NCBI GenBank assembly: GCA_019636285.1
Contig: JAHBXV010000019.1
Span: 1 to 64,000 of the forward strand
Reading direction: 5' to 3'
Length of the DNA stretch: 64,000 nt
DNA from: Planctomycetaceae bacterium
GTDB lineage: Bacteria; Planctomycetota; Planctomycetia; Planctomycetales; Planctomycetaceae
Below, one piece after another: positions 6,311-58,320 of the stretch. Made by a program: the position numbers and the translations under genes. Positions within the stretch are counted from its first letter, which is position 1, and each line of letters opens with the position of its first letter. The notes beneath the pieces were generated by a model. It saw nothing but the letters and a program-made list of their open reading frames with translations, ran no database searches and was not told where the DNA came from.

Positions 6311-8353
6311 TCATTGCGGGAGCGGTTTGGCTCCCGGTGCGTCGGCTTCCTCGATTGGCATCGGCGTGAACTTCTTAAGTTCCGCTACCGCCTTGGTCAG
6401 CAAATCCGGTGGCAGGCCGATGGTGATCGGATCGTCATTCGCCGTTGCCAGATCGAGCCAAGGCTGATCCGTAAATTGCGCACGGCCCAGGACGACAGAA
6501 ACCCCAGGTTCATTCGGGCGAGGCCAGTTCAATTGAACTGACTTGGGGCGTATTAAGATTGGGCGAGTCGCAAATTCTCCGACGACCGTGGTCTCGTCCG
6601 CGGTGCTCAGAAAAGTCTCGTTAATCCATTGCCGCTGATCGGAATCGGAGGCGTCATCAGCGGATTTGGCGAATGGCCTGACCGCCGCAAATTCCCAGCC
6701 GCTCCACTTCTCCGCGTTGGGAGATTTCCATTCCCAAGTGACGCTCGCGACGATCCCTTTGTCTTTCAGAGCTTCCGACAGCGGCACCACGAACTTCCGC
6801 CGGGAAACTGGCTCGGGAGCTGGCGGGCAAACGATCACTTCCTCATAGTCCTTCTGCGGATGCACCAGAAACTGACGGACCGTGCTCGCTTGACCTGCCA
6901 GCATGATCTGAAGTGTACATAAGCCAGCATCGAGGTAACCGAAGTCCGCCCAACCATTTTCGTCCAGGACTGGGCTTAAAGGTTTCGCTGTTCCCTTTGC
7001 TGAGAGTGAGAGATACACAGGAAGAACGGCGGGACCCTCCTTCGTTCCTTCCACGAATCGCAGTCGCACCCGGTTCTGCGTCGGCCCGCGCGCGGCTCGC
7101 TCTTTCGCCGCCAGCATGAGTGCCGTTTGCTCGGCGGCTTCGCGTGCTTGAACAACTCGTGCTGCCGCGAGTTCCGTGTTTTGTTGAATCTGGGCCAGCA
7201 CCTCGTTGGCCATCGCCTCGGGAATGTCGATCCGCCACGGGAACATCTGCTGGTCGAATGGCGGGCTCTCATCGTTACCAGCGACAAAGACATTTCCATC
7301 GGTCTTCGCCCAAGCCGGGAAATCAGGATGGCTATTGTCCCAGATAGCGGCCACGGGCGCGAAGTAGGGGTCACCCCCGCTTCGGCCCATCTGAAAGCGA
7401 TCTGGATTCGCAATGACTCCCAGCGCGATCAGCCGATACCGGGCACCACCCGGCAGAGTGAGCGGGGAGGAGGCGTCCTGTTGTTCTCGTAGCCGTGCTG
7501 TCTCACGAGACATCGAAACCAGGAACTGAAACCGCTTGTTCGGGTTGCCCAGTCGCGAGAGATCCTCTAGCGGCGCGAGCGTTCGCTCAATCGCGTCGCT
7601 AATAACGACTTGAATATTGCCAGTCGACATCGACCATTTCGTCTCGCCGGATGTGACTGGCAAACGCTCGAACTTTGCGAACGCAACCAAATCGGCGTTT
7701 TTCCAGTCTTGCGTCGGGATTGCTGCCGGCGGCTGAATCTCAAGCTCCAGCTTGACTGGTTCCTCGGGTTCTGGAGCCGTGAACTCTTCAACGCGGCTCT
7801 CCCCTTCAGCCACTTCAATCTGGCGAGTGGCAAAGCCGAACTGAGTCTGCAATCTCAGAAAATAGGCGCCGGGAGGAATTCGTCCGAAGTCGATACGTCC
7901 GGTTTCCAGGTCAAGGTATTTCTCGTCCTTCACATCGTTGTTGGAAAGGTGCGTCCCGGCAATTCGGAGCATGGCCGATTCGGGTAGCGGATCGTCCGGC
8001 GAACTTGTCTTCAACTGCACCGCAAGGCGTGTTTCCGGCGGAGTGGTGGGTTTCGTCTCTCGCGGTTCGGCCAACTTCGCGAGCGCCGCCAGGAAGGCTT
8101 CCTGTTGTGTCCGTTGCCCCTCCTGCATCTGCCACGCGACAAATACCAGCGCGGCGCAGGCGGCCAGCGTGCAGACCTGGACAACCAGGGAGAGGCGTTG
8201 CGACATGATGCGGCTCCTCATGGCTTGCCACCACAGGCGGCGGGCCACCAAACGCGGATCGCCAAACTTTTCGAGAGACGTAGCCCAGGCCGACTGTTCA
8301 TCACTCCCCCCAACCATCTCCCGCCGCACCGCACACGCCAGGTGGTCGGCCAA
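6311..8353 (-). CDS. Membrane-anchored HAAS/permease-prefix-like protein downstream of PadR
   Basis: 680 residues from a TTG. The first 50 residues resemble the helical HAAS/permease-prefix segment found beside PadR regulators (DELADHLACAVRREM, EKFGDPRLVARRLWWQAM). One transmembrane helix follows (SLVVQVCTLAACAALVFVAW, about 55-73), then a coiled stretch and a large extracytoplasmic region with beta-sandwich-like segments. The same frame stays open for 49 codons further upstream, up to the stop of the PadR gene at 8501. It encodes a plausible missing domain start (APREDEPESLRQDIVDEL), but that stretch has no ATG, GTG or TTG. The true start is therefore uncertain. It is probably co-transcribed with padR. 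Confidence 0.65.
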   Translation of the reverse strand: MADHLACAVRREMVGGSDEQSAWATSLEKFGDPRLVARRLWWQAMRSRIMSQRLSLVVQVCTLAACAALVFVAWQMQEGQRTQQEAFLAALAKLAEPRETKPTTPPETRLAVQLKTSSPDDPLPESAMLRIAGTHLSNNDVKDEKYLDLETGRIDFGRIPPGAYFLRLQTQFGFATRQIEVAEGESRVEEFTAPEPEEPVKLELEIQPPAAIPTQDWKNADLVAFAKFERLPVTSGETKWSMSTGNIQVVISDAIERTLAPLEDLSRLGNPNKRFQFLVSMSRETARLREQQDASSPLTLPGGARYRLIALGVIANPDRFQMGRSGGDPYFAPVAAIWDNSHPDFPAWAKTDGNVFVAGNDESPPFDQQMFPWRIDIPEAMANEVLAQIQQNTELAAARVVQAREAAEQTALMLAAKERAARGPTQNRVRLRFVEGTKEGPAVLPVYLSLSAKGTAKPLSPVLDENGWADFGYLDAGLCTLQIMLAGQASTVRQFLVHPQKDYEEVIVCPPAPEPVSRRKFVVPLSEALKDKGIVASVTWEWKSPNAEKWSGWEFAAVRPFAKSADDASDSDQRQWINETFLSTADETTVVGEFATRPILIRPKSVQLNWPRPNEPGVSVVLGRAQFTDQPWLDLATANDDPITIGLPPDLLTKAVAELKKFTPMPIEEADAPGAKPLPQ

Positions 8354-8410
8354 CTCATCGACAATGTCCTGACGGAGTGACTCCGGCTCGTCCTCGCGGG
8401 GAGCGGGGAG

Positions 8411-8525
8411 ATGGGTGGAGAGGTCGATGGTTGAAGGTTGAGGGTCGATGGGGAAACCCGAAAAACGAAACTCGAAATCCGAAACTCTAAAAACTAACCA
8501 CTAACTGCTAGCCACCAACCACTCT
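8411..8525. repeat. Degenerate word-mosaic between padR and its partner
   Basis: This stretch is built of near-repeats. GGTCGATGGTTGAAGGTTGA and GGGTCGATGG are followed by AAACCCGAAAAACGAAACTC and related words, then ACTAACCACTAACTGCTAGC and CACCAACCACTC. Similar words fill gaps near 48080, 50310, 53275, 55447, 56866 and 58190. Here it overlaps the last codons of padR and the possible N-terminus of the downstream gene. Confidence 0.65.
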
Positions 8526-8845
8526 CCGCTCCCCCCCAACACTCCCTCAATCGCTTTCGCGTACTCCCGCCACGCCTGTTTCCTCGTTTCCAGGTGTTTC
8601 TGACCCGTGGAGGTGAGGCGGTAGTACTTGCGGCGGCGGCCTTCGACCTGTTCCCAGGACGATGACAGGAATTTCTGCTGCTCCAGTTTGTGGAGCGCGG
8701 GGTACAGGCTTCCCTCCTTCAGCTCGAAATAGCCCTGGCTGCGGGAGAAAACCTGCTGGGTGATGTCGTACCCGTAGCTGGGACCGGCGGAGACGACCTC
8801 GAGTATCAGCATGTCGACCGCGCCCCAAAGCGCCTGTGGTTCCAT
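8501..8845 (-). CDS. PadR-family transcriptional regulator
   Basis: 114 residues with a winged helix of the PadR type: MLILEVVSAGPSYGYDIT, then FELKEGSLYPALHKLEQQ, then GRRRKYYRLTSTGQKHL. PadR proteins are usually repressors. The ATG at 8845 is chosen because GAGG precedes it and the family starts just before this motif. An upstream start at 8890 would run into the operator. The last residues (WLVASS) come from a word-mosaic repeat. It shares a frame with the downstream membrane protein, divided only by a TAG at 8501-8503. Autoregulation is likely. Confidence 0.9.
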   Translation of the reverse strand: MEPQALWGAVDMLILEVVSAGPSYGYDITQQVFSRSQGYFELKEGSLYPALHKLEQQKFLSSSWEQVEGRRRKYYRLTSTGQKHLETRKQAWREYAKAIEGVLGGSGEWLVASS

Positions 8846-48049: not shown

Positions 48050-48119
48050 CTCGACTTCTCCCGACTGGCTGCTCGATTCTTCACCAACCACTACCCACTA
48101 ACCACCAACCACTCCTCCA

Positions 48120-52572: not shown

Positions 52573-53259
52573 TCATCCACGCCGGGCTCGCAACCGCGAT
52601 TCTTCCGACATCACCGTGTCCAGAACTTCATCCAGCCGCCCGACCTGTTCCACCTGAATCGTGATCCCGCCAAAGTGATTCGTGACCGTTCCACTCCCGG
52701 ACACGCTCTCACCTCGCGCGCCGCGTCCCGGCTTCCAGCCGCTCTGGTTGATTGCTTCCAGAAAGCCGATCCCCAACCGCTCCACCGCGCTCGCCTGGAG
52801 CACATACTCGCCAGCCGTGAGCAGAGCCGGAACGCGATCGATTCCGCCCGGTCCCGTGACCAACCCACCGGATGCGAAGCGCATCCCCATCGGCTCACCC
52901 CCGCCACCGCCGATCGGAGCCGCCGCAATGAACAGCGACGCCAACTGACTCGCGACCTGACCAATCGCCTGCGACAGCATGGCGAGCGCGTTAAGCGCCG
53001 GCGAAACATTCAGCGACACGCTCGTCCGGCTGAGTTGATCGAGCTTTCCCTGCACCTGGTCGATCGCCCGCGCCACGTTCTGCAAAGGCGCGACTGCCGC
53101 CCCCAGCGAACTCGCCGATCGCCCCGCGCGATCAAACCCACCCTGCACCGCCGAGAGCCGCCCCGCCAACTCCTCCACCCGCCCGGCAACACTCTCCAAC
53201 TCCCCCTGCAACTGCGAACTGTCGCCCAATAGGCGAACGGTGAGCGATTCGGTGAACAT
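52573..53259 (-). CDS. Short tape measure-like tail protein
   Basis: 228 residues from ATG at 53259 after AAGGACTATGCTCC. An N-terminal coiled coil (LQGELESVAGRVEELAGRLS) is followed by a hydrophobic Ala-rich helix (LAMLSQAIGQVASQLASLFI), then the hallmark FASGGLVTGPGGIDRVPALL and TAGEYVLQASAVERLG found at the C-terminus of phage tape measures. Tape measures usually exceed 600 residues. At about 1.5 Angstrom per residue this would give a tail of roughly 30-35 nm, so the particle would have a very short tail. Confidence 0.8.
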   Translation of the reverse strand: MFTESLTVRLLGDSSQLQGELESVAGRVEELAGRLSAVQGGFDRAGRSASSLGAAVAPLQNVARAIDQVQGKLDQLSRTSVSLNVSPALNALAMLSQAIGQVASQLASLFIAAAPIGGGGGEPMGMRFASGGLVTGPGGIDRVPALLTAGEYVLQASAVERLGIGFLEAINQSGWKPGRGARGESVSGSGTVTNHFGGITIQVEQVGRLDEVLDTVMSEESRLRARRG

Positions 53260-53274
53260 GGAGCATAGTCCTTG

Positions 53275-53399
53275 AAGGCAGCGGCCAGCCGCCAGCAACC
53301 TGCGGCCAGCAGGAAAAGGAATCAGGAATCAGCACTCAGCCATCAGCAAGATAGCTGTTTCTTTCTCTCGACCCTCGACACTGGACCCTCGACTCACTC
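53275..53399. repeat. Three-part word-mosaic in the phage cluster
   Basis: CAGCGGCCAGCCGCCAGCAA, then GGAATCAGGAATCAGCACTC, then TCTCGACCCTCGACACTGGA. Each part is a degenerate tandem of short words. Nearly the same series in the same order lies at 56866-56970 and 58190-58320. Confidence 0.7.
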
Positions 53400-53904
53400 A
53401 CGCTCTTGCCACCGTCGGCGACACCTCGAAGCAGCGGCCGCTGAAGGCGATCAGGTTCGCGTCGTCCCCTTCGCTCAGCGTCAGCGATTCGCGGTAGACC
53501 TTGCCGAACGCGATTCGTTCCGTCGCCAGGCCGGCCGGATCGAGGACCGTGAACTCGAACCGCAGCGTCTGTTGTTCGCCCGGCCCCGAAGTACTGACGG
53601 CTCCGGTTCCGTCCGCGAACGTCAAGAGTTCATAGAGTTGCAGAGGATCGCCCGCGTTCACCGATCGCCCCAGGAGCTGCGTCCACTTCGCCGAGAACGA
53701 GATCGCGATTGAATCCTCGTCCCCCTTTCGCAAGTGCCCCTGCGCGACGGATCCCCGGTCCTTGACCTCGATCGTTCGTTGCCGTTCCGTCCATGACAGG
53801 TCCCCCTCGTCGAGAAGCACCGTCAGCGACTTCGCCGGCGTCGAACCGTCCTTGATCACCAGTTCCCCGTCGCGCAGGTTGCGCGCCAGATTCGATACCG
53901 CCAT
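53398..53904 (-). CDS. Major tail protein (probable)
   Basis: 168 residues, almost all beta: LTVLLDEGDLSWTERQRTIE, AISFSAKWTQLLG, PLQLYELLTFADG, LRFEFTVLDPAGLATERIAF, LIAFSGRCFEVSPTVARA. Size, beta pattern and place just before the tape measure fit tail tube proteins of siphoviruses and gene transfer agents. No direct motif is available, so the call rests mainly on order. Confidence 0.7.
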   Translation of the reverse strand: MAVSNLARNLRDGELVIKDGSTPAKSLTVLLDEGDLSWTERQRTIEVKDRGSVAQGHLRKGDEDSIAISFSAKWTQLLGRSVNAGDPLQLYELLTFADGTGAVSTSGPGEQQTLRFEFTVLDPAGLATERIAFGKVYRESLTLSEGDDANLIAFSGRCFEVSPTVARA

Positions 53905-54219
53905 CTCGTCCCCCCCGCTCGATCAACTCGATTTCTGCTCTATCAAGATCAACGATTCAGGCGTGTGCCACTGGCTGTGCCAGTGCCTCTTTAGAATCCC
54001 TTAGTAACCCGAAGCGTCAGCGAGGGAATCTCTCCCCTCTCCCTCGCTGACGCTTCGGGTTATTGAAGACTCCGGGCTGACGCAACCGGTTTTGCTTGTC
54101 AGAAAACCTGCCGAATACCACGCAGACACCTGGTTGCACGGAAGTTGTGTTAGGGATTTCTAAGGCACACTGGCAGAGCCAGTGGCACACGATTCGGAAA
54201 CCGCGATAAAGCACTACTT
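53905..54219. repeat. Gap with four dispersed repeat copies
   Basis: No gene in 315 bases. In order: GTGTGCCACTGGCTGTGCCA (53963-53987); the dyad AGTAACCCGAAGCGTCAGCG with inverse (54003-54065); a full copy of the ACGCAACCGGTTTTGCTTGT element (54072-54162); and the inverse arm GGCACACTGGCAGAGCCAGT (54164-54190). The outer arms pair with each other across the whole segment. Confidence 0.75.
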
Positions 54220-54651
54220 TCAGACTTGCTGAATCACGCCCGCGCATGTCACCACTGCATGCCGCAGGTGCCCGCTTCCCCGCTCGCGGTCCCGCCGCGT
54301 CAGCTCCCGCACCGCTGGCTCCCGCAGCCGCAGGATCGCCTCCGTCGTATCCGTTCCTGGCAATGCCACCACCGTCTGCCGCAACCGCGCGCGAACGCCA
54401 TCGACCAGCACGTTGAGCCGCGCCGCGTCGGCTCCGGTTCTTGCGAAGACATGCACCGTCACCTGCACATCCAACAGGTCCGCTCCACTGCGAGCCGGCC
54501 GTTCGGCTCCCTCCCCAAGCCAGACCTCGGTCCACTCCGGCAGACTCTCGGCTTCCACGCGCATACCGGGAAAAATTGCCACCTCTTCCGACGAAAGCTG
54601 CTCCTGCCACCATCCATAAAAGCCGCGCGACACCGTCGACATCGTGATCAT
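54220..54651 (-). CDS. Tail terminator-like protein
   Basis: 143 residues. Start at 54651 overlaps the stop of the previous gene as ATGA, which fixes it. Features: LDVQVTVHVFARTGADAARL, NVLVDGVRARLRQTV, and a C-terminal strand HAVVTCAGVIQQV. The alternation of strands and helices and the place between the gp10-like and major tail genes fit a tail completion protein (gpU-like). Confidence 0.65.
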   Translation of the reverse strand: MITMSTVSRGFYGWWQEQLSSEEVAIFPGMRVEAESLPEWTEVWLGEGAERPARSGADLLDVQVTVHVFARTGADAARLNVLVDGVRARLRQTVVALPGTDTTEAILRLREPAVRELTRRDRERGSGHLRHAVVTCAGVIQQV

Positions 54652-55073
54652 TCTGCGTCCCCAGACAGCAATTCACTCAGGATTGCCAGCACCTCGGCCC
54701 GGCTGTCGCTCACTCCCCGGCGAACCATCCCCGCCGGGGCTTGCTGACGCGTCCCGTATTCCACGAACGGTCCATACGGCACACGGTTGCTCGCGATCAC
54801 TTCCGTCGTCCCCGCGTTACTCGTGACCACGGCATCCCCGTCTCCGCCAGTTCCACCATCAATCCCGATAGCAATGCTTGCAGCCGCGGCCTCCCACCCA
54901 TCGCGAAGTCTCCCCGTCTCCACGGGCGTCAGCGCGGCGACTCGACCAATCATCACCCGACTCGCAGCGAGCACCCGTTCTGTACGGCCGGCGGCAATCC
55001 GCGAACTCGCGTCCCGCAGCGCGCTCGCCAGCCCGTCGGCGTCAACATCCACCGTCATCTCGAAGGACATCAC
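54648..55073 (-). CDS. HK97 gp10-like neck/tail completion protein
   Basis: 141 residues. Recognised by the family pattern AALTPVETGRLRDGWEAAAA, VVTSNAGTTEVIAS and VPYGPFVEYGTRQQAPAGMV. It joins head and tail during phage assembly. Overlaps on both sides (ATGA at 55070 and 54648) show a tight operon. Confidence 0.82.
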   Translation of the reverse strand: MMSFEMTVDVDADGLASALRDASSRIAAGRTERVLAASRVMIGRVAALTPVETGRLRDGWEAAAASIAIGIDGGTGGDGDAVVTSNAGTTEVIASNRVPYGPFVEYGTRQQAPAGMVRRGVSDSRAEVLAILSELLSGDAE

Positions 55074-55438
55074 GCCCCTTCCCGCTCACCCGTCAACACA
55101 ATCGTCGCGCTCACTTCATCGGCCCGCGTTTCAACAATCCGATAACGCTCTTCCCCCACAACAATCCGCCGCGAAGTGTCACTAACGGCTTCCGGCCAGT
55201 CCTCACGCCGTACCCGCCAGGCCGCGCGCCGCCCCAATTCCATCCCCGCCGTTTCGACCGTCATTGGCGACTCATCACGCAGAGGAATCGCCTCAATCGC
55301 GGCGCTCTCAGTCGCTTCGCTCACCGACTCCGTCGCCCCGACATACGTCGATGTCACCAGCTCCAGCACAACCGGTTCGCCCCAGTCCGCAAACATCCGC
55401 TCCCGATCAGCCAGACGAAGAGATATTGATAGACTCAT
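55070..55438 (-). CDS. Head closure/connector-like protein
   Basis: 122 residues: FADWGEPVVLELVTSTYVGA, GRRAAWRVRREDWPEAVS, RRIVVGEERYRIVETRADEV, then ATIVLTGEREGA. The pattern of a small beta barrel with the phrase ERYRIVE is common in phage head-tail stopper proteins. Identification is by order and style, not by a clear motif. Confidence 0.65.
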   Translation of the reverse strand: MSLSISLRLADRERMFADWGEPVVLELVTSTYVGATESVSEATESAAIEAIPLRDESPMTVETAGMELGRRAAWRVRREDWPEAVSDTSRRIVVGEERYRIVETRADEVSATIVLTGEREGA

Positions 55439-55446
55439 TTCGATTC

Positions 55447-55500
55447 CTCACGTCTTCTCTGGCTCTCAGCTTTCAGCTTTCAGCTTTCCGCTCGATGCTG
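55447..55500. repeat. CTTTCAGCTTTCAGC word-mosaic
   Basis: CTCAGCTTTCAGCTTTCAGC followed by TTTCCGCTCGATGC. The words match those near 56920 and 58280. It fills the gap between the holin-like and connector genes. Confidence 0.65.
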
Positions 55501-55504
55501 CTCT

Positions 55505-55753
55505 TCACGCTCCGAACCGCCTGAGCCACGCCGTAAACAGCGACCCCAGCACGAACGTCGCCACCGCCACCAGCGGCGTCAGGCCGTGACGCCACTGTTC
55601 GAGCGTTCGCAGCCGCGTTTCATGATCGGCTGACACCCGCACCAGTCCGTCGACCGCTACCCGCACGGCCTCCAGGCCAATGTTCACTTCCTGCAGCGAT
55701 TGCAGAATCCGATCCAATCGCTGATCGGTCGTTCCCGGTTCTCCCTGGCTCAT
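55505..55753 (-). CDS. XhlA/holin-like protein
   Basis: 82 residues. A coiled-coil N-terminal half (DQRLDRILQSLQEVNIGLEA, RLRTLEQWRHG) is followed by one transmembrane helix, TPLVAVATFVLGSLFTAWL, and a basic end (RRFGA). This is the architecture of XhlA-type hemolysin/holin accessory proteins. Start overlaps the stop of the upstream gene (ATGA). No endolysin gene is visible nearby. Confidence 0.65.
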   Translation of the reverse strand: MSQGEPGTTDQRLDRILQSLQEVNIGLEAVRVAVDGLVRVSADHETRLRTLEQWRHGLTPLVAVATFVLGSLFTAWLRRFGA

Positions 55754-56031
55754 CGACCCGGCTCCTCACATTCGCAATCGGCCTGTGTCACCACCCACGC
55801 CGGAGCCCCTGCCAGCAACTGCTGATAATGCGTCCTCGCTTCCAGCAGCGCTCGCAGATTCGCCGCGCGATCGGTCTGAGGTCCGCCACCTCCCCCATAC
55901 TTGAGTGCCGACAGCTTCCCGTCTCGCAATAGGTTCAAAACATCCAGATCGATCTGCGCCAGTATCCCGCGAATCTGCGCCTCGCTCGGACTCGCCCCCG
56001 ACACGCCGCTCATGTCCGTCAAGTCACTCAT
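55750..56031 (-). CDS. Small phage-cluster protein, possible connector
   Basis: 93 residues. EAQIRGILAQIDLDVLNLLR is followed by a Gly-rich linker (KYGGGGGPQTD) and a helix LRALLEARTHYQQLLAG, ending in a Cys-containing tail (TQADCECEEPGR). It faintly recalls gpW-like head-tail joining proteins (helix with R..Y..L). Function not certain. It is coupled with the holin-like gene. Confidence 0.6.
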   Translation of the reverse strand: MSDLTDMSGVSGASPSEAQIRGILAQIDLDVLNLLRDGKLSALKYGGGGGPQTDRAANLRALLEARTHYQQLLAGAPAWVVTQADCECEEPGR

Positions 56032-56163
56032 CGGAGATAGTTCCTAATTTGGAACGAAGCGTGCGCAGGTAACCCGAAGCGTCAGCGAGAGCGAAAAAAC
56101 ATAAAACCCTCACTGACGCTTCGGGTTACTGAATACGTCTCGCAGGATATGACCCGATAACCG
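56032..56163. repeat. GTAACCCGAAGCGTCAGCGA dyad copy
   Basis: The left arm GGTAACCCGAAGCGTCAGCG (about 56070) and the inverse arm CACTGACGCTTCGGGTTACT (about 56108-56129) surround AGAGCGAAAAAACATAAAA. It is the third copy of the dyad at 41987 and 54004. No gene. Confidence 0.75.
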
Positions 56164-56358
56164 TCACCGTTCACCGACTCGCGCCGCCGCTTCTTCCTTC
56201 AGCCGCAACCGCTCATACCCCAGCCACCGCAGTTGATCGGCCCGCGTCGCCGCATCGAATTCGGCCTCGCGCAGCGCGAGCCGTTCGCAGACTCGCAGCA
56301 CCAGGTATCCCAGTGTCCGCGGTCCGGTCAGCTCGTCGCCCAGCCGTCCCCCTCCGGG
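56164..56358 (-). CDS. Candidate -1 frameshift extension of the chaperone-like gene
   Basis: The frame -1 to the upstream gene is open from the slippery site at 56364-56358 to a TGA at 56166-56164, giving 64 further residues: PGGGRLGDELTGPRTLGYLV..., DAATRADQLRWLGYERLRL, and a charged end KEEAAARVGER. There is no ATG in it. A GTG (residue L-V-L) could start a shorter protein. If the ribosome shifts at T_TTT_TTC, a fusion of about 231 residues is made, like the G/GT pair of tailed phages. Confidence 0.55.
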   Translation of the reverse strand, partial: PGGGRLGDELTGPRTLGYLVLRVCERLALREAEFDAATRADQLRWLGYERLRLKEEAAARVGER

Positions 56359-56858
56359 AAAAAAAGCCGTTCCGACTCCGCGAGCGTCTGTTCACCCAGA
56401 TGACTCAGCCGGCAGACCTCACCGCACAGCCACGCCAGGTCCCCGGCCGTCCACCCGGCTCGTTCCATCTCGGCGAACACGCCATCCGCATACGCACACC
56501 AGTCGGGGGGCGAACCGAGCACGGTCTCGAAGACCACATTCGGATCCCCCTTCAGCGCCTCGACAATCGCCAGCACCGACACCCGCTGGTGATACTCCTC
56601 CAGTGCCGCCCGAAAACCAGGCTCCTGCTCATCCGCGCTGACCACCGCGAGCCCATCCGCATGACGCAGCGGCTTCCCCTGCGCATCACGCGCTACCTTC
56701 AGCGGCGCGACAGGGGGCACCACCCCCAACCCGCGCAGCCGCCGCGAAAACCCCAGCGGCAAAGCCTGCAACGTCAACTCCGCCCCCCGACCATCCCGCC
56801 GAGGCAAGCGAACTCGAAGACGCTCCAGGCCAGCGTTCGTACAACCAGCGATCTTCAT
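56328..56858 (-). CDS. Tail-assembly-chaperone-like protein
   Basis: 176 residues from ATG at 56858, after GGAGCCTGCACCA. Segments: LERLRVRLPRRDGRGAELTL, YHQRVSVLAIVEALKGDPNV, YADGVFAEMERAGWTAGDLA, CRLSHLGEQTLAESERLFFP. Small acidic helical proteins like this serve as tail assembly chaperones. Codons 165-167 are CTT TTT TTC, and a -1 shift here leads into the extension at 56358-56164. The location after the capsid gene, instead of before the tape measure, is unusual. Confidence 0.65.
   Translation of the reverse strand: MKIAGCTNAGLERLRVRLPRRDGRGAELTLQALPLGFSRRLRGLGVVPPVAPLKVARDAQGKPLRHADGLAVVSADEQEPGFRAALEEYHQRVSVLAIVEALKGDPNVVFETVLGSPPDWCAYADGVFAEMERAGWTAGDLAWLCGEVCRLSHLGEQTLAESERLFFPEGDGWATS
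56358..56364 (-). promoter_or_regulatory. T_TTT_TTC slippery heptamer
   Basis: On the minus strand the sequence GGCTTTTTTTCCCGGAGGGG fits X_XXY_YYZ in the zero frame (codons TTT TTC at 56363-56358). GGAGGGGGACGG directly after it is SD-like and GC-rich and could help stall the ribosome. It joins two long open frames. A sequencing slip in the seven-T run is the main alternative. Confidence 0.55.
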
Positions 56859-56865
56859 TGGTGCA

Positions 56866-56970
56866 GGCTCCAGAAGCCGCCAGCTACCAGCAGCCAGCGA
56901 AGAAGGGATCAACGATCAGCTTCAGCTTTCTGCTTTTCTCTCGACCCTCGACACTCGTCTCTCGACCATC
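56866..56970. repeat. Three-part word-mosaic upstream of the chaperone-like gene
   Basis: GCCAGCTACCAGCAGCCAGC, then GAAGAAGGGATCAACGATCA, then TCTCTCGACCCTCGACACTC. It has the same order of word types as at 53275 and 58190. Confidence 0.7.
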
Positions 56971-58167
56971 TCACGCGCCATCCACCTTCGTCACGAACGC
57001 CGTATCCACCGCGCTCACGCCGCCGTAGTAGCGCACTTTGACTCGCAGCACGACGTCGCGGTCGAACGCGCTTTCGCTCTCGGCTTTCTGCAAGAAGGTC
57101 TGCACCGGCCAGATTTCCGACCAGACGAACTGCCGGCGAAAGTCCCCCACATACCAGTCGTTGGCAGCCTGACCACCCTGTTCATCGACAAACGGGCTCG
57201 ACAGCACTTCCAGGAGGCCCTGCACCGGGTTCGCGAACCGCGTTTCCTGGGCGTCGTTGGTCACCGTGATCTCGGTCGAATGGATCACGCTGCGGGCCAC
57301 CCCCCTCAATCGCTCCGGCACCAGCAGTTGCCGCGCCGGCGCGACGATCGGCCGCTGCGTTCCATCAACCCGGTCGTCCTTCACTTCCGTTGCCCGGTAG
57401 TGCAGGGCCGCGTCGATGTCGGTCCAGTCGACCAGTGGAATTGCCGTCGCGAAGCCCGGCGAAGTCGTGTTCCCCGCACCAATCCAGTTACGATGCGCGC
57501 CGCTTGTCGCGTACAGCGCCGTTCCGGCCCCGTTCGGCCGATAGACGAATTTGCCCGTCGTCGCGTCGGCGTCGGTCACCGCCCGCACGATCGTCCGTTC
57601 TCGCTCCTGCCGCAGATAGAACCCGAGCGCCATTGCCCGGCGGTTGATCTCTCCGGTCTGGTCGAAGCCGATCAGCTCTTCGTTAATCGACAGAATCCGA
57701 CCCTGCTTGGTCTCTTCCGTGCTCACCCACTTTTCGCCGAAGGTACTTTCCTCGTAAGGATGCCCTTCCGCCACGTCGGTCGGCCCCGACAGCGCCCGAT
57801 ACCCGGCGATCTTCGCCCCGCGCACGCGGCTCGACATCACGGTCACCAGCTTGTCGCCGATGAACCCCGCGTCGTCCTCGTACCCTTCGATCACCTTCCG
57901 GGCGATCAGTTCCCCCGTCACCACCTGGAACAGGTTCGTTCCCACGCCGGGGTTCGATTCCTGCAGCAGCGCCGGCACGGCTGTGCTCTCCGGCGTCCAA
58001 CTCCGCAGCCGCCGCAATTCGGGCAACACGCCGCACGCCTCCGCCAGCTCGTAATAGCTGACGTCATCCACCTTCAGCTCCCCCTCGTTCAAGAGCTGGC
58101 AAACCTTCCGATAAAATCCCTCCGCCCCAAGGGATTCAATCAATCCCGAAACGCCTACGGTCTGCAT
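56971..58167 (-). CDS. Major capsid protein
   Basis: 398 residues from ATG at 58167, after GGAGAACAACACAT. The N-terminal arm (FYRKVCQLLNEGELKVDDVS) is followed by an HK97-like body: VMSSRVRGAKIAGYRALSG, STEETKQGRILSINEELIG, FYLRQERERTIVRAVTDADA, RQLLVPERLRGVARSVI, and NDWYVGDFRRQFVWSEIWPV, ending VLRVKVRYYGGVSAVD. Size and place after the protease and decoration genes agree. Since the protease is a separate gene, the capsid may be cleaved at its N-terminus. Confidence 0.85.
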   Translation of the reverse strand: MQTVGVSGLIESLGAEGFYRKVCQLLNEGELKVDDVSYYELAEACGVLPELRRLRSWTPESTAVPALLQESNPGVGTNLFQVVTGELIARKVIEGYEDDAGFIGDKLVTVMSSRVRGAKIAGYRALSGPTDVAEGHPYEESTFGEKWVSTEETKQGRILSINEELIGFDQTGEINRRAMALGFYLRQERERTIVRAVTDADATTGKFVYRPNGAGTALYATSGAHRNWIGAGNTTSPGFATAIPLVDWTDIDAALHYRATEVKDDRVDGTQRPIVAPARQLLVPERLRGVARSVIHSTEITVTNDAQETRFANPVQGLLEVLSSPFVDEQGGQAANDWYVGDFRRQFVWSEIWPVQTFLQKAESESAFDRDVVLRVKVRYYGGVSAVDTAFVTKVDGA

Positions 58168-58189
58168 ATGTGTTGTTCTCCAATTTGAC

Positions 58190-58320
58190 TTGAGCAGCCA
58201 GCCGCGAGCCACCAGCGGCCAGCGAAGAAGGGATCAGAACTCAGGGATCAGCTATCAGGAATCAGCAGTCAGCTTTCAGTTTCTTGCTCGACTCTCGACT
58301 CTGGACACTCGACTTTTCCA
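58190..58320. repeat. Three-part word-mosaic upstream of the capsid gene
   Basis: GCAGCCAGCCGCGAGCCACC, then GGGATCAGCTATCAGGAATC and CAGCAGTCAGCTTTCAG, then CTCGACTCTCGACTCTGGAC. It is the longest of the mosaics in this window. Confidence 0.7.

Follow-up and report, generated by a model that had tools for sequence, protein, structure and literature searches.

The window, i.e., the whole 64,000-nt stretch analysed from contig JAHBXV010000019.1 of a Planctomycetaceae bacterium, carries on its minus strand a gene for a PadR-like regulator followed by one for a putative membrane partner (Table 1). The PadR protein matches PF03551 (E 8.5e-26; 90.2 bits, cut-off 27), and its final residues, after GVLG, lie in or beside a degenerate heptamer array. 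The partner is encoded by a single-copy gene, its sole match in its own genome being itself. Its match to the HAAS model PF22564 falls below the curated cut-off of 27, with 18 bits over the full length and 22.5 bits over the N-terminal 126 residues, yet all 28 aligned members match this model at E ≤ 0.01 (best 1.1e-7); we therefore call the protein HAAS-like.

Table 1. Coordinates of the PadR–HAAS-like locus and of heptamer arrays in the window.
Feature	Position	Strand	Remarks
PadR-like winged-helix regulator	8501..8845	-	Probable ATG 8845; open frame reaches GTG 8890
PadR stop TAG	8501..8503	-	One of four TAGs 7 nt apart
Degenerate heptamer array	8516..8425	-	TTAG-type, then TTTCGNN, then NTCRACC units
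CAA, position -5 from Asp 8425	8438..8440	-	In array; ATG/GTG there in 18/30 homologous places
ACC, position -2	8429..8431	-	ATG there in 3/30 homologous places
ATC, position -1, best near-cognate start candidate	8426..8428	-	Opens last array unit ATCGACC
HAAS-like membrane-partner coding region	6311..8428	-	Conserved block through stop
Conserved N-terminal block IDLSTHLPAPREDEPESLRQDIVDE	8354..8428	-	Outside ORF counted from TTG 8353
TTG, first in-frame standard start	8351..8353	-	Near-invariant Leu of DEL motif, mid helix 1
Further heptamer arrays in window	48057-48113, 53274-53398, 55462-55517, 56875-56976, 58182-58318		Other unit types

The PadR frame stops at TAG 8503-8501 and the downstream frame is identical, remaining open from 8500 to 6314 (729 codons). 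This bears out a preliminary description of the locus, made from the sequence alone, in which the two genes share one frame interrupted only by this TAG. Its 49 following codons free of ATG, GTG and TTG were likewise recovered, with TTG 8353 as the earliest such codon of the open frame and an ATC at 8428. Across all frames between 8515 and 8353, the only other start-type codons are GTG 8515, which lies within PadR, and GTG 8501, TTG 8364 and ATG 8358, which are out of frame. The 49 codons consist of two parts, i.e., 24 codons of heptamer array (8500-8429) and 25 codons of conserved HAAS-like sequence (8428-8354). Third-position GC content (GC3) is 0.42 in the first part and 0.76 in the second, compared to 0.65 in the gene after them and 0.81 in PadR. 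The earlier view that all 49 codons encode the missing start of the HAAS-like domain thus holds for codons 25-49, which form the conserved block, but not for codons 1-24.

The array showed a lag-7 identity of 0.635, compared to 0.265 (sd 0.048) in dinucleotide shuffles, none of which was as high (0/5000); the best value across lags 4-15 among 2000 shuffles of the region was 0.48. TAGs at 8510, 8503, 8496 and 8489, spaced 7 nt apart, together stop all three frames, and the PadR stop is supplied by the array's TTAG-type units. The earlier picture of one frame split by a single TAG is not supported as a meaningful arrangement. At its other end, the array reaches Ile-Asp (8428-8423) and takes up the handful of codons that hold ATG or GTG in relatives. 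The final unit recurs letter for letter 21 nt upstream, and all four NTCRACC units carry C at the base equal to the third of ATC 8428. Missed in the preliminary description, the array explains the TAG as well as the loss of the start. RNA folding of 8530-8390 gave nothing unusual at the junction (z -1.33).

Homologues were sought in 149 genomes, including the organism's own; the protein was found in 30, and locus L031 was added by a scan of genome contigs. We compared 30 homologous places, anchored on a conserved D-E-P motif. Left out of these were L028 (two), L029 and the second L012 match (start too far in), L030 (N-terminus uncovered), and L001 and L032, which are the window itself. No same-genus relative turned up among the genomes searched, and the ancestral junction had to be inferred from homologues that are only distantly related (27-50% identical, save one 34-residue match at 68%). 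All 30 places, where starts are sequence predictions and several have a second candidate, offer a standard start (22 ATG, 8 GTG) 2 to 18 codons before the equivalent of Asp 8425. The nearest start lies at -5 in 18 places, -4 in four, -2 in three, -6 in two, -9 in two and -18 in one. Codons -6 to -2, home to the nearest start in 27/30 places, fall in the window within the last array units and in register with them. In a second, overlapping set (34 rows, eight cut by locus ends), ATG, GTG or TTG was present at -4 to -9 in all 26 full-context rows. Orthologues starting at the equivalent of TTG 8353 would have refuted the preliminary description; this was not the case, as none of the 30 places requires a start there. 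ATC 8428, however, which had been put where homologues were expected to start, is off by one codon or more, given that the nearest start is at the equivalent codon (-1) in none of the 30.

The conserved block shows no sign of decay. Of the 14 columns that are invariant across 28 aligned sequences, five fall within the block; the alignment covers 27 of the 30 homologous places (three with a frame ending within 100 codons were omitted), and the mean identity of the block to the 27 relatives is 62%. By the ratio of the block's conservation to that of the 50 residues after it, the window ranked 20th of 28 from the low end. A structural model of the domain (mean pLDDT 91.9; pTM 0.58) predicts three consecutive helices at residues 16-39, 44-55 and 58-120. 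The third predicted helix opens with the GxP motif G56-D57-P58, in which G and P are invariant in the 28 sequences.

These data bear on whether TTG 8353 is the true start, with the first 25 conserved residues dispensable here. This codon is the earliest in-frame standard start and is preceded by an anti-Shine-Dalgarno duplex of -4.0 kcal/mol. We consider such a start improbable, however: every homologous place offers a standard start ahead of the block, which is as conserved in the window as in relatives, and the codon itself encodes a near-invariant Leu of the DELxDHL motif (model residue 26), ten residues into predicted helix 1. Automatic annotation that placed the start at TTG 8353 would strip much of the first helix of the signalling domain. 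Moreover, the duplex energy is unremarkable. While the starts of 19/30 relatives reach -4 kcal/mol, so do 38.6% of 1000 random window positions, making the Shine-Dalgarno sequence a weak discriminator.

Among non-standard codons, ATC 8428 is the best near-cognate candidate, since a start there leaves the conserved block complete; the Ile that it encodes is common to L006, L016, L021 and L031. It has no Shine-Dalgarno sequence (+0.4 kcal/mol), and both TTG 8353 and ATT 8365 (-6.1 kcal/mol) score better in this respect. Two of the relatives with ATG at -2 also have none (+0.4 and +0.6 kcal/mol), yet their ATG is present. We also considered whether the organism has a real start codon that was lost only in assembly, through a base error or a mis-assembled repeat. 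The genome is a draft of 113 contigs, repeats are error-prone, and ATC 8428 is one base from ATG and adjoins position -2. This is nevertheless a rather remote prospect, given that the C of ATC agrees with all four NTCRACC units and that positions -5 and -4, where most relatives start, would each need two or three changes. In addition, sequencing reads are usually longer than the array, which spans only ~92 bp.

A PadR gene was found upstream at 23 homologous places out of 30; the two genes share one frame in five of these and differ in frame in 18, and hence frame sharing is unremarkable. At two of the five (L021 and L026), the PadR stop is the sole barrier, as in the window, but an ATG is present. 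Read-through of the TAG into a PadR-HAAS fusion, raised in the preliminary description, would fit one shared frame with one stop between the genes, but we rejected it as highly improbable. Fusions are absent from all 23 places with PadR, and in L002, the nearest full-length relative, another in-frame stop separates the two genes. Furthermore, the inserted 24 residues would be array-encoded, with their low GC3 of 0.42, and the dyad is described with a standalone PadR-like protein (PMC11237479). In six of the 23 places, the PadR stop ends one base before the anchor, such that the -5 start overlaps the PadR end; L005 and L023 also overlap it, judged by the nearest start. Such comparisons suggest that an overlapping, translationally coupled PadR-HAAS junction may be the ancestral form.

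Strong arrays were detected at two of the 30 homologous junctions, i.e., those of L002 and the second gene of L007. None of 300 shuffles was as high in either case, and both retain a start codon; in L007, the array abuts the ATG. Weaker arrays occur at the junctions of L015, L019, L020 and L031 (their values being reached by 4 to 8 of 300 shuffles), and the remaining junctions have less array signal or nothing. The homology to L002 is nearly full length (query 16-713), which together with the 729 open codons and the undecayed block argues against the HAAS-like gene being a long-silent pseudogene. We hold that explanation to be very improbable, despite the absence of a standard start before 8353 and of a Shine-Dalgarno sequence just upstream of ATC 8428. 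In two homologues, L013 (genome G084) and L018 (G058), the part of the HAAS-like gene that matched is interrupted once by an in-frame stop, suggesting that loss of this gene may recur. Separately, genus g38 has several HAAS-like copies close together on one contig (its loci are L011, L012, L096, L097, L099, L102, L104, L106, L107 and L109-L112), and its full-context rows carry a WPE[IL]-type start region at -5.

The organism's own genome has similar arrays at other sites, as do some relatives, which make up a fair share of the related genomes sampled. We scanned for lag identity (49-base scan; identity 0.60) in a non-random 752-kb sample of the own genome, which includes the studied window; its contigs C1, C21, C34 and C59 were chosen from earlier match lists, and the C21, C34 and C59 stretches end before the matches. 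Lag 7 gave 14 regions, whereas lags 4, 5, 6 and 8-16 gave 2, 0, 0, 1, 5, 1, 1, 2, 0, 6, 4 and 1, respectively; lag 14 is a multiple of 7. Among other genomes, lag 7 yielded seven regions in 100 kb of G001 and one in G047, where lags 6 and 9 gave three and two, and none in G037, in G099 or in 50 kb of E. coli. Exact triplets of two unit types were found in 40 and 22 of the 149 genomes, respectively. The reversed-pattern control for this census was not clean (for TTTCGNN, seven matches in the own genome compared to four in the control, with control matches in several other genomes in both searches), and for this reason we relied on the lag scan.

The five further arrays in the window comprise unit kinds that include CTGATNN, GCTGGNN, GTCGAGN and TTGGTGG, and each has a plausible ATG free downstream. 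Four of them sit within or close to gaps in a block that contains phage-like genes, and those near 53, 56 and 58 kb each occupy a space between genes of the minus strand. Their presence inside this block suggests that heptamer arrays enter acquired DNA or travel with it. Array L046 is located inside a 992-codon ORF; a crude ORF test of array positions was ambiguous, with several arrays overlapped by ORFs of doubtful reality. By eye, three arrays of the own genome (L042 4049-4185, L051 900-972 and L081 14798-14885) have a block order similar to that of the junction array, in which CAACC- or CACCAAC-type units come after those of the TTTCG type. The phage-like structural genes themselves (52573-58212, minus strand) encode a capsid protein (PF25209, E 3.2e-18), a neck/tail completion protein (phrog_169, E 2.5e-14) and a tape-measure-like protein (phrog_973, E 2.7e-7); six proteins were scanned, three of them without any named match.

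We read the array, the conserved block, the starts available in relatives and the lack of a standard start here as follows. A mosaic heptamer array would have spread or been copied into the PadR-HAAS junction, and would have overwritten the ancestral ATG or GTG of the HAAS-like gene. We give a probability of roughly 65% to a recent overrun of this kind, leaving either weak production of the protein from a near-cognate codon or a newly silenced gene. That the HAAS-like gene is otherwise intact indicates that the loss of its start was recent or tolerated. Tentatively, we favour low-level production from a near-cognate codon beside the array, a reading that would account for the undecayed block. 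Recent silencing, to which we give less weight, would do so too. Against an overrun, the starts of relatives are predicted and strong junction arrays are found in only two of the 30 places.

A bolder and quite unlikely extension is that the arrays serve as mobile gene punctuation in this bacterial group. TAG units would end the upstream gene whatever its frame, and the U-rich, Shine-Dalgarno-free units that follow would load ribosomes, allowing initiation at whichever codon comes first past the array, even ATC. Were this so, the array would have replaced the stop and start of a regulator operon without killing the operon. More generally, the locus suggests how a junction repeat process can erase a start codon while leaving the coding sequence intact. 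Continued production of the protein would make the locus a natural test of near-cognate initiation beside a repeat leader.

A comparison with reinitiation (PMC4648390) was set aside, since that system is eukaryotic. No heptamer arrays in planctomycetes were named in the titles and abstract openings found in the open-licence literature. Mrazek et al. (2007), as cited in PMC4679880, treat heptanucleotide long simple sequence repeats as runs exceeding chance expectation in a genome; unlike these, the junction units are degenerate, with two to three variable positions, and arranged in blocks. The nearest parallels are the TAACTGA heptamer repeats of Beggiatoaceae and cyanobacteria. According to PMC4679880, these often lie directly upstream of start codons that have no ribosome-binding site and put stops in all three frames; in 13 sets the repeats run over the stop of the preceding gene, and in Microcystis they are often mixed with other heptamers. 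The junction array is similarly a tandem repeat of 7-nt period in a gene gap with stops in three frames. Arrays elsewhere in the own genome share the period and only in part the position between genes. The junction array differs in its units (TTAG-, TTTCGNN- and NTCRACC-type), in being a mosaic of several degenerate types, and in covering the start position itself.

The gene pair, in turn, resembles the HAAS-PadR dyad, described in PMC11237479 as a standalone PadR winged-helix gene with a protein bearing an N-terminal three-helix GxP domain; binding or regulation of PadR by HAAS is a proposal of that paper, and "planctomycet" does not occur in its main text. The window differs from this dyad in that the domain scores 22.5 bits against the Pfam cut-off of 27 and the partner has no standard start. 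It agrees with it in having a PadR winged-helix gene (PF03551, 90.2 bits) beside the partner, three predicted helices, a GxP motif (F-G-D-P) and, by inspection, a hydrophobic, probably membrane-spanning segment after the domain.
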